From positions 1 to 64,000 of the forward strand of contig JAFXUD010000094.1 of NCBI GenBank assembly GCA_017535315.1: 64,000 nt of DNA, read 5' to 3'. Under the pieces are notes generated by a model. The model saw only the letters and a list, made by a program, of their open reading frames with translations. It did not search any database and was not told the DNA's origin. Positions 4,909 to 46,923 of the stretch are shown here, piece by piece. Source of the DNA: Victivallales bacterium. GTDB taxonomy: Bacteria; Verrucomicrobiota; Lentisphaeria; Oligosphaerales; Oligosphaeraceae. The translations under genes and the position numbers were made by a program. Numbering within the stretch: the first letter of the stretch is position 1; every line of letters begins with the position of its first letter.

Positions 4909-5682
4909 TCAATTGCGAAGGAAACCCGTGAGCGGGTCGGATGCGGAGGCTCCGCGCTCCAGGACGCGCCCAAGACCCGCGAGCCAGGCGGAACGACCTG
5001 CCTCGATGGCGTTGCGGAAGGCGTGTGCCATGAGCGGGATGTCGCCAGCCGTGGCGAGGGCGGTATTTGCCATGACGGCAGTGCATCCCATCTCCATCGC
5101 CTCGCATGCCTGAGAGGGACGTCCTATGCCCGCATCGACGATAATGGGCAGTTCGATTTCATTGACGAGTATCTGGATGAACGGTTTGGCCTGCAATCCC
5201 TGATTGGAGCCGATGGGGGCGCCCAGGGGCATAATGGCGGCTGCGCCTGCCTTGACCATATCGCGTGCAGCCATCAGGTCGGGAAACATGTAGGGGAGCA
5301 CGACGAATCCATCAGATGCAAGCGTTTCGGTGGCTTTGATGGTTTCCTGGTTGTCGGGCATGAGGTATTTGGTGTCGCGCATGATTTCGATTTTCACAAA
5401 GTTTCCGCAACCCATTTCACGGGCGAGTCGGGCGATGCGCACTGCCTCGTCGGCGTTACGCGCACCAGAGGTATTTGGGAGCAGGGTGACGCCTTTGGGG
5501 ATGTAGTCGAGGATATTCTCATGGTCGGCGGTATTGGCGCGCCGAACCGCCAATGTGATGATTTGTGCACCAGCGTGCTCGACAGCTGCCTTGATTAGGT
5601 TCAGGGAGTATTTGCCTGAGCCTAGAATGAAACGTGAGGTGAAACTGTGGCCGCCTAGTTGAAATGAATCGTTCTCTTGCAT
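4909..5682 (-). CDS. thiG: Thiazole synthase ThiG
   Basis: Builds thiazole phosphate from deoxyxylulose 5-phosphate, ThiS-thiocarboxylate and the ThiH product. It is 257 aa, full length, a TIM barrel. The Schiff-base lysine sits in NFVKIEIM (Lys97), and the phosphate-binding GIGRPSQA and later NTALATA segments are present. A 198-bp palindromic repeat element lies between it and thiF, so its translation is not coupled to thiF. Supply by the same riboswitch-controlled transcript would need read-through of that structured element. Confidence 0.97.
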
Positions 5683-5703
5683 TATGGCTGTCCTTGGTTT
5701 GTT

Positions 5704-5901
5704 GTAACTATTCAGAGGTGTATTAAATTGGGACAGGCCGCTAGCTTTTCTGCGCCTTGCCGCTCCGCTTCGCTACGCGGCACGACGCAAAGGAACCAGG
5801 GGAATCGCCTGCCCGTGGGTTACGCTTGCCGCTACGCGGCTTCGCTTCACCCACGGCTATGCTCTTTCGCCGCTATGCGGCTAACTCTTCTGAATAGTTA
5901 C
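5704..5901. repeat. 198-bp hairpin-rich repeat element, copy A (between thiF and thiG)
   Basis: The element is bounded by inverted ends GTAACTATTCAGA (5704-5716) and TTCTGAATAGTTAC (5888-5901). Inside are a hairpin TGCGCCTTGCCGC/GCGGCACGACGCA, a stem CCGTGGGT...ACCCACGG enclosing GCCGC-TAC-GCGGC, and a hairpin GCCGC-TAT-GCGGC. A second copy in the opposite orientation lies at 43594-43790. Both fall just after a stop codon and just before the next co-directional gene. No protein is encoded. Confidence 0.9.
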
Positions 5902-5907
5902 GATTAG

Positions 5908-6564
5908 TTATTCTTTAATGTTGACGTTCTCGAAGTCTCCTGCGATGATTTGGATGACAGCAAGCGCCTCGTGCGCGGCGCAGGCCATGACTCGTGCGGA
6001 AAAGAGGGTGCCGCTGGCTTCAACATCGCTGACACCGTCGCCGCAGATGATGAAGTGCCTGCCAAGGCGTCGCGTGCGGATAAGATTCGCACTCCCCTTG
6101 CCTGCCATGCCATTGCCCGAGACAAGCCACTTGTCTGGAAAGTGCTTCAGGACGGCATTGACCAGCATCGCCTTGGCTTCCGCCTTGTCGAACGCCTCGC
6201 AAATGATGTCGGGTTCAGCCAGAAGCGTGGGGATGTTCTCCTCTGTGACACGCACCGTCGAGGTGGTGACTTGGAGATAGGGGGCAATCTCCTTCAGGTT
6301 ATCGCGCAAAGCCTCCGTCTTGAACAGGCCGAGTTGCCGAACAAAGTATTGCTGTCGGTTCAGGTTGGAGATATCGACACGGTCGAAGTCGATGAGGTGG
6401 AGGTGCCCGACACCTGCGCGCGCCAGGGCGATGGCGATGTTGGAGCCAAGGCCGCCGAGCCCGCAGATGGCGACAGTGGCCTGGGAAAGGCGTGCGTGAA
6501 GCTCTGCGCCGTGTCGGGCAATCAGAGCATCATCCAACTCCTGCTTTGAGGGAATGACGGCCAT
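5908..6564 (-). CDS. thiF: ThiS adenylyltransferase ThiF (short form)
   Basis: Adenylates the C-terminal glycine of ThiS before sulfur transfer. From the ATG at 6564 it is 218 aa, the size of the short ThiF family found next to thiS-thiG-thiH. The nucleotide-binding loop GLGGLGS (residues 35-41), DFDRVDISNLNRQ and the later KAMLVNAVL region are present. The zinc CxxC pairs of longer E1-like ThiF proteins are absent, as expected for this family. An extended start at 6603 would overlap thiS, so it was rejected. One base separates this ATG from the thiS stop. Confidence 0.95.
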   Translation of the reverse strand: MAVIPSKQELDDALIARHGAELHARLSQATVAICGLGGLGSNIAIALARAGVGHLHLIDFDRVDISNLNRQQYFVRQLGLFKTEALRDNLKEIAPYLQVTTSTVRVTEENIPTLLAEPDIICEAFDKAEAKAMLVNAVLKHFPDKWLVSGNGMAGKGSANLIRTRRLGRHFIICGDGVSDVEASGTLFSARVMACAAHEALAVIQIIAGDFENVNIKE

Positions 6565-6565
6565 T

Positions 6566-6760
6566 TCAACCGCCTCCAACAAAACTGACGATTTCCAGAA
6601 CATCGCCTTCTTTCAGGATGACTTCTGCGAAGGTGGCCTTTGGGACGATGTCGCCATTGAGTTCGACGGCGATTCGCTTGAGGTCATAACCCGCTTCCGC
6701 TAGATAGTCGGCCAGCGTTTTTCCCTCGGCGGGTATCTGTTTTCCGTTGATGGTTACCAT
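6566..6760 (-). CDS. thiS: Sulfur carrier protein ThiS
   Basis: A 64-aa ubiquitin-fold sulfur carrier ending in SFVGGG. The terminal GG is the site of adenylation by ThiF and thiocarboxylation. It is the first gene after the TPP riboswitch, about 20 nt downstream of the terminator hairpin, and is tightly packed with thiF. No strong Shine-Dalgarno is visible. The start was chosen from family length and the typical MVTINGKQ opening. Confidence 0.96.
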   Translation of the reverse strand: MVTINGKQIPAEGKTLADYLAEAGYDLKRIAVELNGDIVPKATFAEVILKEGDVLEIVSFVGGG

Positions 6761-6776
6761 ATTGCATACCCATGTG

Positions 6777-6812
6777 AAAAAAGGCGGAAATCCGTGGGAC
6801 TTCCGCCTTTTG
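6777..6812 (-). terminator. Intrinsic terminator of the TPP riboswitch
   Basis: Read on the minus strand, AAAGGCGGAA pairs with TTCCGCCTTT (10 bp, 11-nt loop) and is followed by six T. It sits between the aptamer and thiS, so it should act as the riboswitch expression platform: bound TPP favours termination before the operon. Confidence 0.88.
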
Positions 6813-6824
6813 GCGTGTGTCTTG

Positions 6825-6918
6825 CTTCCCTACGTTGGTATAATCCAAATCAGGTCTGCGGGTCGAAGCACTTTGGTGGCTTCCTCTCAGGCTGTTCTGG
6901 GGCAGCCTCCCCGAGAAG
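6825..6918 (-). ncRNA. TPP riboswitch (THI element)
   Basis: Minus-strand sequence shows the conserved CUGAGA at 6890-6885, then ACCUGAUUUGGAUUAUACC and AACGUAGGGAA. The outer P1 helix pairs CUUCUC (6918-6913) with GGGAAG (6830-6825). This is a textbook thiamine pyrophosphate aptamer. It controls thiS-thiF-thiG-thiH through the terminator at 6777-6812. Confidence 0.97.
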
Positions 6919-6934
6919 ACGAGTGTGAAATTAT

Positions 6935-36549: not shown

Positions 36550-36897
<348 letters not shown>

Positions 36898-42757: not shown

Positions 42758-43576
42758 TTATTCCTTTCTCTCCTCTTCAAAAAACTCCCAGACCTTGTCT
42801 AGGTAGTCTGCCGCCTCGTCATAGACGGCGTGACCATAGTTATCAAAGATGAAGAATCTGCCGCCTGTATTTCGTGCGATTTCCATGGCCTGCTTCGGGG
42901 GAAAAATGCGGTCAAGTGCTCCGCCGATGGCAAGCACGGGGCAGTTGATGGCGTGGAGGTTGGCCGTCAGGTCGAAGCTGCACAGGCCGTCTGCAAAGAT
43001 GGAGAATCGCTTCAACTCCACATCTGTCGTGCCTGAAAGGGAGGCGAGAATCGCCTCTTTGTGCCTTACGTAGAAGGCATCCGTGTAAATCATTTCGGCG
43101 AAGGAACGGCCCAGTTCGTCCGCTTTCCCCGCTTTGGCGAGGGCAGACCAGTTGTTGAGAATGCCTCTGGCATGCTCTGTCATGGCGGGCGTGCTTGAGC
43201 CGATGACAAGCCGTTTCACGAGGTCTGGACGTTCCGCGGCGATTGCCTGCGCCACCATGCCTCCTGCAGAAACTCCCATCATGTAGGCGTCGCGAATGTG
43301 GAGGGCATCCATCGCGCGAATGGTGTCAGTAGCCATCTCCTTCACGGTATAGTGCGCAGGCGGCTCTGACACGCGGTCGAACATGATAATCGTATATTCG
43401 CCGAGAAAACGCCTGTATTGCATGGCGACAGCAGGTGCAAGAGGCATGAGGCTCTTGGTATAAAGCCCTGGAAGGAGGACAAAGCTCTTGGGGCCGCCCT
43501 TGATTATCGCATAGTCCAGCGTAGAGGATGCGGTTTTTATGCTGGAAATCTGAATGTCTGGTTGGGTGGTGCTCAT
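42758..43576 (-). CDS. Alpha/beta hydrolase
   Basis: 272 aa. Nucleophile elbow GVSAGGM, acid in GGALDRIF, histidine in NYGHAVYDEA; compact fold without lid insertions. It resembles 3-oxoadipate enol-lactonase/haloperoxidase-like members. Substrate unknown. The hairpin repeat copy B ends about 18 bp before its ATG, so that element occupies its upstream region. Confidence 0.9.
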   Translation of the reverse strand: MSTTQPDIQISSIKTASSTLDYAIIKGGPKSFVLLPGLYTKSLMPLAPAVAMQYRRFLGEYTIIMFDRVSEPPAHYTVKEMATDTIRAMDALHIRDAYMMGVSAGGMVAQAIAAERPDLVKRLVIGSSTPAMTEHARGILNNWSALAKAGKADELGRSFAEMIYTDAFYVRHKEAILASLSGTTDVELKRFSIFADGLCSFDLTANLHAINCPVLAIGGALDRIFPPKQAMEIARNTGGRFFIFDNYGHAVYDEAADYLDKVWEFFEEERKE

Positions 43577-43593: not shown

Positions 43594-43790
43594 GTAACTA
43601 TTCAGAAGGGTAAGCCGCATAGCGGCGACAAGAATTTAGCCGTGGGTGGAGCGAGCGCCTTTGGCGCGAGCGAAACCCACGGGCTAGCGCCTCCCAATTT
43701 CTTTGCGCCGTGCCGCGTAGCGAAGCGGAGCGGCACGGCGCAGAAAATCTAGCAGCCTGTGTCTATAGGCTACCTTTCTAAATAACTATT
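43594..43790. repeat. ~197-bp hairpin-rich repeat element, copy B
   Basis: Same family as 5704-5901 but in the opposite orientation. One end is GTAACTATTCAGAA (43594-43607), the other a diverged TCTAAATAACTA (43777-43788). Conserved blocks include GCCGCATAGCGGC, CCGTGGGT/ACCCACGG and GCGCCGTGCCGC...GCGGCACGGCGC. The inner loop sequence differs from copy A, but the hairpins are kept. The stop codon TAG of the next leftward gene (43786-43788) lies within the terminal repeat. Confidence 0.9.
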
Positions 43791-46700
43791 CGGCTTTCTT
43801 CAGAACATATTTGTCATAGAATTGCAGTATTTTTGTGCGGGCGTTCTCCATATCGGCGATGGAGCCTCGTGCGGCGGATTCGAAGAGAGTGTGAAGCTGC
43901 GCAGATAGCTCAGCCTGGTCTTGGCGTCCTTCTATGGCCTTGAGGCAGAGCTGTGCGATGCGATAGTCAGTGAAGCCGTCGCACCATGCGTCGAAGCGTC
44001 TGCCAGAAAGCAGGGTGCCGTAGTTGGCGTCGGCGTAAAGGGTGCCGTAATCGCTTCTGTTTTTTGCGTCATAACCAGAGCAGTCGAAGGAGTCGAAGCC
44101 GTCACCGCCCGCATGTGAATCGACGTGCCAGAACGCGGCAGTCGAGCCGAGTCCATCGCGGAGGTTCTGCCAGAAAAAGCGTCGATAGACAGAGGGATGG
44201 ACAACCTTGTCGAGGATGCCATATGTCCAGATGGTGCAGTTGTGCCTCTTCGCGGCTTCGATGACATCGGGGAGCGTGTTGGAGGGGCGGTAGAGCATGA
44301 CAATGTCAAATAGCCCGAAAATTTTGTCCACGGTTTCGGTTGTGAGCTTTTTTCGTCTGCTTCCGAAGGGGTGCGGGTCGATGAAACGGTGCGCTTTCGG
44401 GAGCGCCTCACGTATCCAGTTTCCCGCGTTCCAGGCGATGTTCATCGTCGATTTCGGGTCGTCCCAGTCGCCGCCAGGTTCGTCACATGGATAGATAATC
44501 AGCTGCTCCTGGCGAACGCCGAAGTCGCTTTCCAAATGGTTGGCTAAGGTTTGCAGGAAAAGCTTGAACGCCTTTTCGAATTTGGGAGTGCCGTATGGGA
44601 AGCGTACTTTCCCCTTGTGGAGCATCGCCCATTTCCGCTCCATCGCCAAGTAGAAGATGAAGCTGCAGCTCTGTGGGTCGAAACCGTTGGCGAAGCAGGT
44701 GGCGAGGTTCTTGTCAAGTTGCGAAAAGTCCGATTCACCAATGGTGCCATCCTCCTTCATTTCGGGGTAAGTACCCAGCAACGGGGCAAAGATGGTGTTG
44801 AGACCACGGTCGGCGAGGAAGCGGACATGCTCTGGACGAACGCTCCTGCAGAGCAGGTAGGTGAAGTTCATGTTGGTGCATGGATAATCGTCGGGATTCG
44901 CGTTCGTCACGGTGACCTCCAAGTCGGCAACCTGCACGCCGAAGCCAGGGTAGTCACCCTTGACGACCAGCTTGCCTGTATAAGTGCCAGCTTCAAGCCC
45001 CTTTGACGATATGGTCATCCAAACAGGCGTGGTCCCGTTCGGTGCAGTGCGAAGGACTGTGTTCATGGGAAGCGGTGCAAGCGGGTCGAAGAAGAGGTTT
45101 TTGGCATTATCCATAATTGGAAGCCCTTCTGCAAACTTTATGCCGTTGAGAAAATCGTTCCACGGTTCGTGGTTGAAGGCCTTAGCGCCGCTTTGCAGGG
45201 GCCATTTCTCAAAGCATTTAATCTGACCGAGGAAGGGCTTGTCAGTCATGTTGCTGAACACGAACCCACGGCGCGCCTCGCTGTTACGTGGCATCGTGAT
45301 GGAGATTCTCTGAACTGGCTTAGAGAGCATTGAAATGGCCAGGCTATTGCCATACGGATCTTCTGGTTCCCACAGGACGCAGGGCCGTCCTTCAAGGACG
45401 ATGGAGGTGTAGAGATGCCCGAGGTTCTCAAAGGCTGCGCCGATGCGCGGATACCATGCGGCCTCTTCGCCGTTGGCGGCGATGGTTTCGGCCAGCTTCT
45501 TCAACTCCTGCTCTGCCTTTTGAAGCAGTTCAGGTGCATTTGGAGGCAGGGTGCCCAGAGTATCCTGCTCTACCTTCAGACGCTGCTCGAAATATGCCTT
45601 TCTGCTACCGATGATCATGGTAGGGAAGGAGTCAGGCTGATGGAAATCGGTTGCAAGTGGTCCCCAGGTCTGCAGCCCTCCTGCCGCTGGACCAGAACGC
45701 GTGAAATTGCATGTGTGTTGGCTACCTGGCGTGGGGTTGAGGCCGATTTCAGCGATTGGTATCCTGAAAACCGCCTGCCATTCGGTCGGCGTGTGCTCGA
45801 CGGAGACCGTGGCTGCACTTTTGAATGCGGGGTCTAGCGTGTGTGAGGCAACCATCTTCGCCGTGTAGAGTTTGCCATTGATGCCTGCTCCATAGTGGTA
45901 ATATAGGTGGTGCGTCTTGTCTGGACGGAAGAAAAACTCCACAGCGTCTCCTGACCACACCGTGCCATCTGGGTTGATTTTGGGGTCGATACCCTCTGGA
46001 ATCGGACATTTGTAGGTGACAACAAGCACGTCGCCCGCCAGCATTGCGGATGCGCGCCCTGCGCAACGGACAAACTTTGCGTCTGCCGTGACGGTACTGC
46101 CTGCCGCCGCACCTTCTGAATCAAGCACGTTGAACGGGCAGGTCCACTCGGCTGCACTGACATCTGCGGTGACAAGGATGTTGGAGTTGTCCCGCTCCTG
46201 TGGCGTGTTGTCTACGGCTTCCTCCAGCGGTTTGGGCGGCTCAACAGAGTTCCACATCTTGACGCTGGCGATGAAGCCGCGCAGGAATGCGGTTTTCTCC
46301 TGCGGGTTGCTTGGGTCGGTGCCGAAGGTTAGAAGCGGATAGTATTGCTTTGGCGTGTAGTCCAAGTCGGAGATGGAAAGGGCGTTTTTACGGCAGTCCA
46401 CGAGCATACCATCCAGCCAAAGGAAGCCTTCGCCGCCCGATGCAAGGGCGACCCGTGCGTCATGCCATCTGCCTGGCGCGAGGTTCGCTGTTGCACCAGT
46501 CAAGGCGAACTCCTTGAGTATCGTGTTGCCCTTTCTCTGGCTGATGCGCGCTTCGGGCTGGTTCTTATCGTTGAATTGCAGGATGAAATAGGCCTGTCGC
46601 CATGCGGTATTCTCAAAGCTGATGAGGGTGCGGCGCTTCTTGTCTAGCGGGGTGTCGAGCTTGAAGAGCACATCGAATGTCAGCTCCTTGCAGTCGAGCT

Positions 46701-46923
46701 TTTGGCGTGGGAACTCGATGAAGGTGTAGCCGCCATCTGGGCAGTTCAGCCCTCCCAACGGCGTGCAGAGCGTGGTGCGTGTATATGGCAGCTTGGGTGT
46801 TCCTGTTCCGTTGTCAGGGATTATACCATCACTGATTTGCGTGAAATTCCATGAGTGAAGCGGTTGGCCACCGCATAACCCCAGCGAAAACAGTGTTGTC
46901 AGAAGGAGGAAAAGCTTTTTCAT
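43786..46923 (-). CDS. Secreted DUF4091-type glycoside hydrolase with LamG- and CBM9-like domains
   Basis: 1045 aa with signal peptide (~1-19, LFSLGLCGGQ). A concanavalin/LamG-like domain (~25-230; RWHDARVALASGGEGFLWLDG) and a CBM9-like domain (~245-430; YKCPIPEGIDP and SGDAVEFFFRPD) come first. A linker/sandwich region and a C-terminal barrel follow, with IIYPCDEPGGDWDD (DE pair) and RRFFWQNLRDGLGSTAAFWH, typical of DUF4091 proteins. Extracellular glycan binding and cleavage is likely; the substrate is not known. Its TAG stop lies in repeat copy B. Confidence 0.82.
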   Translation of the reverse strand: MKKLFLLLTTLFSLGLCGGQPLHSWNFTQISDGIIPDNGTGTPKLPYTRTTLCTPLGGLNCPDGGYTFIEFPRQKLDCKELTFDVLFKLDTPLDKKRRTLISFENTAWRQAYFILQFNDKNQPEARISQRKGNTILKEFALTGATANLAPGRWHDARVALASGGEGFLWLDGMLVDCRKNALSISDLDYTPKQYYPLLTFGTDPSNPQEKTAFLRGFIASVKMWNSVEPPKPLEEAVDNTPQERDNSNILVTADVSAAEWTCPFNVLDSEGAAAGSTVTADAKFVRCAGRASAMLAGDVLVVTYKCPIPEGIDPKINPDGTVWSGDAVEFFFRPDKTHHLYYHYGAGINGKLYTAKMVASHTLDPAFKSAATVSVEHTPTEWQAVFRIPIAEIGLNPTPGSQHTCNFTRSGPAAGGLQTWGPLATDFHQPDSFPTMIIGSRKAYFEQRLKVEQDTLGTLPPNAPELLQKAEQELKKLAETIAANGEEAAWYPRIGAAFENLGHLYTSIVLEGRPCVLWEPEDPYGNSLAISMLSKPVQRISITMPRNSEARRGFVFSNMTDKPFLGQIKCFEKWPLQSGAKAFNHEPWNDFLNGIKFAEGLPIMDNAKNLFFDPLAPLPMNTVLRTAPNGTTPVWMTISSKGLEAGTYTGKLVVKGDYPGFGVQVADLEVTVTNANPDDYPCTNMNFTYLLCRSVRPEHVRFLADRGLNTIFAPLLGTYPEMKEDGTIGESDFSQLDKNLATCFANGFDPQSCSFIFYLAMERKWAMLHKGKVRFPYGTPKFEKAFKLFLQTLANHLESDFGVRQEQLIIYPCDEPGGDWDDPKSTMNIAWNAGNWIREALPKAHRFIDPHPFGSRRKKLTTETVDKIFGLFDIVMLYRPSNTLPDVIEAAKRHNCTIWTYGILDKVVHPSVYRRFFWQNLRDGLGSTAAFWHVDSHAGGDGFDSFDCSGYDAKNRSDYGTLYADANYGTLLSGRRFDAWCDGFTDYRIAQLCLKAIEGRQDQAELSAQLHTLFESAARGSIADMENARTKILQFYDKYVLKKAE

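Follow-up and report, generated by a model that had tools for sequence, protein, structure and literature searches.

A probable IS66-type MITE shell around a REP-like, Y1-linked cassette in a Victivallales bacterium

MITEs are generally interpreted as reduced versions of a single parent element, and a transposase encoded in the same genome is a usual, not an obligatory, feature of them. IS66 insertion sequences have GTAA ends and make 8-bp target duplications. As a review describes them, bacterial MITEs such as Chunjie, ERIC, Correia/NEMIS and MITEPsy1 are 70–300 bp long, carry terminal inverted repeats (TIRs) and target duplications, and occur as many intergenic copies together with partial copies that lack the ends (PMC10969869); the term IS66 is absent from that text. 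In REP/BIME/RAYT systems and in TIRYTs, inverted palindromes surround a Y1 transposase gene and are present in more than 100 copies (PMC2817692 and PMC3733652), and the hallmark given is a RAYT gene lying between inverted REPs (PMC2817692).

Here we describe, from analysis carried out wholly in silico, an element that occurs twice in a 64,000-nucleotide stretch (the window) of a Victivallales genome. This type-A element resembles the MITEs above in each of the respects listed and differs from them in that one cassette is common to three sets of ends in a single genome. A module within that cassette resembles the REP and TIRYT palindromes in its copy number and its inverted arrangement around Y1 genes. 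It differs from a REP in having two linked hairpins, a stem foot without a tag and Y1 partners that score below the RAYT cut-off, and in travelling inside DDE-type MITEs. The original prediction of a REP/MITE-type family is borne out in both its halves, as two layers: the element is very probably composite mobile DNA, an IS66-type MITE shell around a REP-like cassette tied to Y1 transposases. The literature searched contained no report of the end sequence or the cassette motif and, in titles and abstract starts, nothing on an IS66-derived MITE or on a REP inside a MITE, so that the description of the family as new is not contradicted.

The window copies and the type-A family

The features of the window that bear on the argument are as follows.

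5704–5901, minus strand (strand set by hairpin 1 first): type-A MITE copy 1, 198 bp
5704–5716, plus strand: TIR of copy 1, GTAACTATTCAGA, exact
5889–5901, minus strand: second TIR of copy 1, TCTGAATAGTTAC, exact
5696–5703, unstranded: left target duplication of copy 1, GGTTTGTT
5902–5909, unstranded: right target duplication of copy 1, GATTAGTT, 6/8 identical to the left GGTTTGTT
5869–5882, minus strand: cassette hairpin 1 of copy 1
5811–5857, minus strand: cassette hairpin 2 of copy 1, GCCGTGGGT...ACCCACGG
5751–5789, minus strand: cassette hairpin 3 of copy 1
5908–6603, minus strand: gene for a ThiF-type adenylyltransferase (270.9 bits, cut-off 159), upstream of copy 1
4909–5682, minus strand: 257-aa ORF downstream of copy 1, without NCBIfam match, which we take to resemble ThiG
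6810–6923, minus strand: TPP riboswitch preceding the operon on the thiF side
43594–~43790, plus strand: type-A MITE copy 2, with one exact end (43594–43606) and the other worn
43612–43684, plus strand: module of copy 2 (hairpin 1 - linker - hairpin 2), covariance model match
43704–43742, plus strand: hairpin 3 of copy 2
43786–46923, minus strand: 1045-aa ORF with its stop codon within the worn end of copy 2, without NCBIfam match
42758–43576, minus strand: ORF resembling alpha/beta hydrolases, downstream of copy 2, the matches listed all being below family cut-offs

The two stretches are indeed copies of one palindromic element of ~198 bp, mutually opposite and correctly placed. Inverted ends had been claimed for both; in copy 1 both 13-bp ends are exact, while copy 2 retains one exact end and is mismatched at 4/13 positions of the other. 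Each of the three hairpins was confirmed; in stability the folds exceed 200 dinucleotide-shuffled sequences by 5.5 to 6.6 SD, and 0/200 shuffles folded as well. Copy 1 is short, non-coding and bounded by TIRs, as a MITE should be. The G+C content of the element is 58%, against 52% for the window. At gathering score, an Rfam scan of the window placed no family on either copy; it returned one tRNA and one TPP riboswitch. Elsewhere the window contains a tandem repeat with a 17-bp unit at its start (1–119) and another with a 9-bp unit, CTCCTGTCT, at 36717–36817.

The source genome is a 4.9-Mb draft of 96 contigs, 95.6% complete. A DNA search of it gave at least 65 matches (40 of 274 candidates scored), and the 13-mer end with at most one mismatch occurs 71+63 = 134 times, compared with 2+4 = 6 for the reversed control, which argues against a chance repeat. 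A family should have many intergenic copies, and the genome has at least 39 two-ended type-A copies; the 39 that were read dispose of the idea that only two exist. Among these distinct two-ended elements, taken from fetched loci, 37/39 are 191–201 bp long and two are longer.

Flanking 8-mers agree at seven or more of eight positions in 20/39 copies, as compared with 1/1482 mismatched pairs, and the duplication is exactly 8 bp, since lengths of 5–7 and 9–12 score 0. The remaining 19 copies lack a clear duplication: eight, copy 1 included, agree at 6/8 positions and 11 at five or fewer. For copy 1 there is also an empty site. In a genome of the same genus (G001), the spacer between thiF and the next gene has no element and a single GGTTAGTT, from which GGTTTGTT and GATTAGTT each differ by one base; a second genome of that genus (G002) also lacks the element at this site. 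No orthologous DNA was found in relatives for copy 2. The two ends, the 8-bp duplications and the empty site together identify the window copies as MITEs.

Near the empty site, a small terminator-like palindrome, GAGGTAATTAAAATTACCTC, lies at the position that the MITE occupies in the window genome (L271, G001:C572). Tandem arrays were seen in or beside elements (L040, 3250–3748; L348, about 350–740; L041, 3206–3343); the array features listed are a 103-bp period with repeated left ends, a 139-bp period and a 41-bp period.

IS66 transposases and the spread of the ends

A search for the IS66 transposase domain PF03050 gave 0 matches in the source genome, a 95.6% complete draft. The domain is present in 11/22 genomes bearing A-ended elements, and at none of their 20 IS66 loci was an A end found. 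IS66 genes with an exact A end emerged only from a wider search of 118 relatives, 34 of which have PF03050. In G002, of the same genus, locus L382 encodes a 501-aa IS66 transposase (NF033517, 229.4 bits against a cut-off of 180; PF03050, 2.9e-34) with an exact end, GTAACTATTCAGAACCCC, beyond the 5' side of the gene; on the other side, 5 bp of contig remain. A 122-aa ORF without Pfam match lies upstream, and the accessory genes tnpA and tnpB are absent from some IS66 groups. In G018, of the same family, locus L385 holds the 3' part of a transposase 77% identical to that of L382, and an exact end lies about 104 bp downstream of the stop codon. Each of these two candidates for an autonomous element thus shows one exact end, and on no contig of the 118 relatives do both exact A ends surround one IS66 gene. 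Two further loci have related ends: an IS66 gene in G012 with an exact end of type C, one of two other end types described below, at the contig end (L389), and an IS66 gene in G038 between two GTTACTATTCAGGTA ends, which have two mismatches to the A end (L380).

Closed plasmids supply complete examples. The L382 protein matches 174 plasmid records, and in 6/8 of those fetched, GTAAC... ends and a perfect 8-bp duplication surround the IS66 relative (pHTA426, Planococcus, Leptolyngbya, Deinococcus, Bradyrhizobium and Octadecabacter, the last three with ends less alike); matching ends with a duplication were sought on the Chlorohelix and Streptomyces records and none were found. The closest described elements are those of the IS66 single-transposase group (DUF6444 + DDE_Tnp_IS66), such as the one on pHTA426 (NC_006509.1). 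The pHTA426 element has ends GTAACTATTCAGCC, alike to the A end at 12/12 and 11/12 positions, and the target duplication AACTCGTC, and so shares with the type-A elements GTAACTATTCAG ends and 8-bp duplications; its transposase is 33% identical to that of L382 over 487 residues. The type-A elements, by contrast, are gene-less, and the window genome is without the transposase. In the present data, IS66 elements with GTAA ends and 8-bp duplications were seen both on plasmids and at locus L381. The record NC_006509.1 (L403) names its IS66-like element ISGka4, a name that clashes with the ISLre2-family element so called in PMC8024623.

Because exact ends border IS66 genes in relatives, and near-identical ends with 8-bp duplications do so on plasmids, the type-A shells appear to be IS66-type. 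We infer that an IS66-family transposase acting in trans would cut at the GTAACTATTCAGA ends and insert the ~198-bp piece, with duplication of 8 bp.

The same ends reach well beyond the Victivallales. When 84,980 genomes were scanned for the two exact ends at a spacing of 158–188 bp, with duplications no search criterion, 46 loci were found, in 26 genomes. Going by the record names, the hosts are MAGs of Lachnospiraceae and other Clostridia, with one Victivallales (L053), one Parachlamydiales (L072) and one gammaproteobacterium (L062); nearly all end-bearing genomes are MAGs, in which binning errors could add hosts. The flanks are identical (8/8) at 27/46 loci and alike at seven or more positions at 33/46; those of the gammaproteobacterial copy agree at only 2/8. 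Across 28 such genomes, including two relatives, counts of the 13-mer range from 2 to 106, against 0 to 2 for the reversed control. Between the exact ends lie hairpin-rich interiors that, judged by eye, are unrelated from clade to clade. Palindromes of ~46 bp with type-A ends occur in a gammaproteobacterial MAG (L255–L260, L248–L250) and are perhaps the smallest movable form.

Several other candidate partners were rejected. TIR pairs at insertion-sequence distance (G079:C41, G076:C15, G076:C7) enclose host-type ORFs and no transposase, and contig-end fragments near ends encode host genes or nothing. In viral contigs, at least 120 stretches match the end plus A, with two spaced pairs and no duplication among those listed, and a protein search there found no relative. 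A Methanosarcina plasmid has a 17-bp match that lacks a partner end and is roughly what would be expected by chance; in about 200 kb of an Agathobacter plasmid, the elements have worn ends and none is autonomous; and DNA matches in rhizobial plasmids cover the GC-rich hairpin parts only.

A cassette in three shells

Within the shell lies a cassette of ~130 nt with three hairpins, whose first part is the hairpin 1 - linker - hairpin 2 module. A covariance model built from 36 module copies matches 123/123 candidates scored in the source genome (2522 in the first look) and has matches in 29/40 genomes searched, the source genome included. It had been proposed that the inner stems differ in sequence and keep pairing. 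Over the 36 copies this holds for hairpin 1, with compensatory G-C/C-G changes (GCCGC/GCGGC, GCGCC/GGCGC and GCCCC/GGGGC); the outer stem of hairpin 2 was itself a selection criterion, the copies having been chosen for the alignment (A3) by a pattern that fixes that stem. Covariation over the whole structure scores 0.093, compared with 0.030 in shuffles, 0/500 of which score as high.

Both window copies lie between co-directional ORFs, as the original prediction stated, and the placement directly after stop codons needs qualifying: the thiF stop is 6 nt outside copy 1 and overlaps the target duplication, and the stop of ORF 43786–46923 lies inside the worn end of copy 2. Across 37 type-A copies (two elements longer than 230 bp left out, ORFs called by length only), 17 lie between co-directional ORFs, 10 between divergent and two between convergent ones, two are inside an ORF and six are in unknown context. 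With only 17/37 of this kind, co-directional placement is not general, and in view of the mixed context of the 37 copies we do not propose targeting of stop codons. In 5/37 copies the neighbouring ORF is closed by the end's own TAA. Near genes, the hairpins would probably come to lie in 3' regions, at little cost to the host, and might serve as structures at the ends of transcripts.

Such structures could instead be what selection maintains, as RNA or terminator elements whose hairpins are kept for transcripts near gene ends and whose mobility is incidental. The strong folds and the compensatory changes in hairpin 1 are what this would predict, and a stop codon lies within 50 bp of 22/37 type-A copies, in a count without random-position control. 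Orientation to genes is not fixed, however, with 10/37 copies divergent and two inside ORFs, and the tandem arrays, the chimeras and the truncated copies have the look of neutral change. Furthermore, hairpins are needed by single-strand transposases also, so that pairing alone is no proof of an RNA function, and we consider this explanation unlikely.

The ends of 141 modules in fetched loci (module matches spanning less than about 45 model positions left out) are A/A in 40, B/B in 24, C/C in 7, mixed in 3, one-ended in 32 and absent in 35; because loci L330–L369 were chosen by eye as modules without an adjoining exact A end, these are not genome shares. The three mixed-end modules lie within two elements. 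Type B elements are 239–319 bp long with ends GGGAATTATATACTT..., and type C elements are 190–196 bp, one of them 295, with ends GTAATNCCTCACCGATTG.... The loci concerned (L241 and L346–L367 for type B, L332–L347 for type C) represent two further MITE families in the source genome. Duplications of 8 bp flank 11/21 type B elements, compared with 11/420 in shuffled pairings, the B flanks being A/T-rich, and 5/6 type C elements, compared with 0/30. No transposase was found for the B ends.

The A, B and C consensus sequences are alike only over A20–151 or 156, at 80% to B and 89% to C, and their ends differ. Two chimeras join a left A to a right B end (C38:64.3 kb) and a left B to a right A end (C80:97.0 kb), and in both the flanks are unmatched, as expected for recombination between elements. 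A C-ended element without cassette has a perfect duplication (L025), and therefore a shell does not need the cargo; conversely, the cassette also occurs bare in the source genome. Since the cassette sits in several shells and the same ends surround unrelated interiors, ends and cargo assort independently. The cassette would have entered several MITE shells and would now spread, in this genome, within shells of at least three end types, with recombination between shared cassettes swapping the ends.

These observations also bear on another possible origin, that the element simply arose from one IS66 by internal deletion and that its interior is leftover insertion-sequence DNA. MITEs are commonly thought to arise by internal deletion of a parent element, according to PMC3189936, and the ends do match an IS66 of the same genus. 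A deletion derivative should not, however, share only its cassette with elements of two other end types, nor should that cassette occur bare and around Y1 genes, nor should A-ended elements elsewhere have unrelated interiors. We regard such an origin as distinctly improbable.

Y1 transposases and the Acido-Lenti-1 RNA

The source genome has three Y1 (IS200-like) genes (C58, C78 and C47). Inverted modules lie on both sides of two of the three, the arrangement that marks REP/RAYT loci: eight before and three after the gene in C58, two before and two after in C78. No module adjoins the third, in C47. Modules adjoin Y1 genes in G002 and G012 as well, and at six other Y1 loci of relatives (L325–L329 and L309; L307 coincides with L327) the pattern used found none. 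Of the Y1-flanking modules in the source genome, 14/15 are without an A, B or C end, and one has a 3-mismatch A-like match.

By reading, the Y1 proteins have an intact HUH motif (HIH) and tyrosine; against the RAYT model they score 22.4 and 19.4 bits, below the cut-off of 80. The GTAG/CGTC tag at the stem foot is absent from the alignment, GTA(G) being found only in the hairpin 1 loop. Because of the missing tag and the sub-cut-off scores we call the module REP-like rather than REP; as a palindrome it would belong with Y1 transposases (IS200-like, RAYT-type), which may spread it. A pure REP/REPIN family, in which Y1 moves the whole 198-bp unit and the inverted ends are an outer stem, would account for the inverted modules around Y1 genes and for the more than 100 module copies, but it is strongly disfavoured by the empty site and by 8-bp duplications in 20/39 copies, which to our knowledge Y1 (HUH) transposition does not make, as well as by the end-less state of 14/15 Y1-flanking modules and the presence of the same ends beside IS66 genes, and we judge it very improbable.

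We know of no function for the Acido-Lenti-1 RNA. Its Rfam family, RF01687, stands among the RNA candidates in Table 1 of PMC2864571, with Acidobacteria and Lentisphaerae as its taxa. The Acido-Lenti-1 model aligns to the opposite strand of the module (hairpin 2 - linker - hairpin 1), module copies scoring 23–29 bits on it, below the gathering score of 37. Such matches below the gathering score occur in 5/10 loci of one set (L324, L030, L320, L339 and L340, the scores of L339 and L340 being the same) and in 2/13 loci of a second set. Beside Y1 genes of relatives there are 13 matches in 8/20 loci (L317, L299, L300, L302, L297, L304, L295 and L305); L317 has one match above the gathering score (37.2 against 37), and in L299, L304 and L305 matches lie on both sides of the gene. 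In 20 control loci of similar total length, unselected for Y1 and partly from other genomes, which makes them a rough control, there were 0/20. These matches suggest that Acido-Lenti-1 may be a Y1-linked REP-type repeat rather than a small RNA.

A wider proposal, for and against which we see the case as evenly balanced, is that the cassette is served by two unrelated chemistries, by Y1 when alone or in arrays and by DDE-type shells when carried as cargo, that shells are changed by recombination within the cassette, that ends and cargo are exchangeable modules across phyla, and that Acido-Lenti-1 is of the same kind. The occurrence of one cassette in three shells, together with shell-swapped chimeras, means that MITE interiors can be acquired cargo with a history of their own, and it links REPs and MITEs, which are normally studied apart. 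Ends that occur from Victivallales to Lachnospiraceae would be given an IS66 origin, and the reassignment of an orphan Rfam RNA family is a concrete, testable proposal. With an IS66 partner that has exact ends, transposition in trans becomes directly testable.
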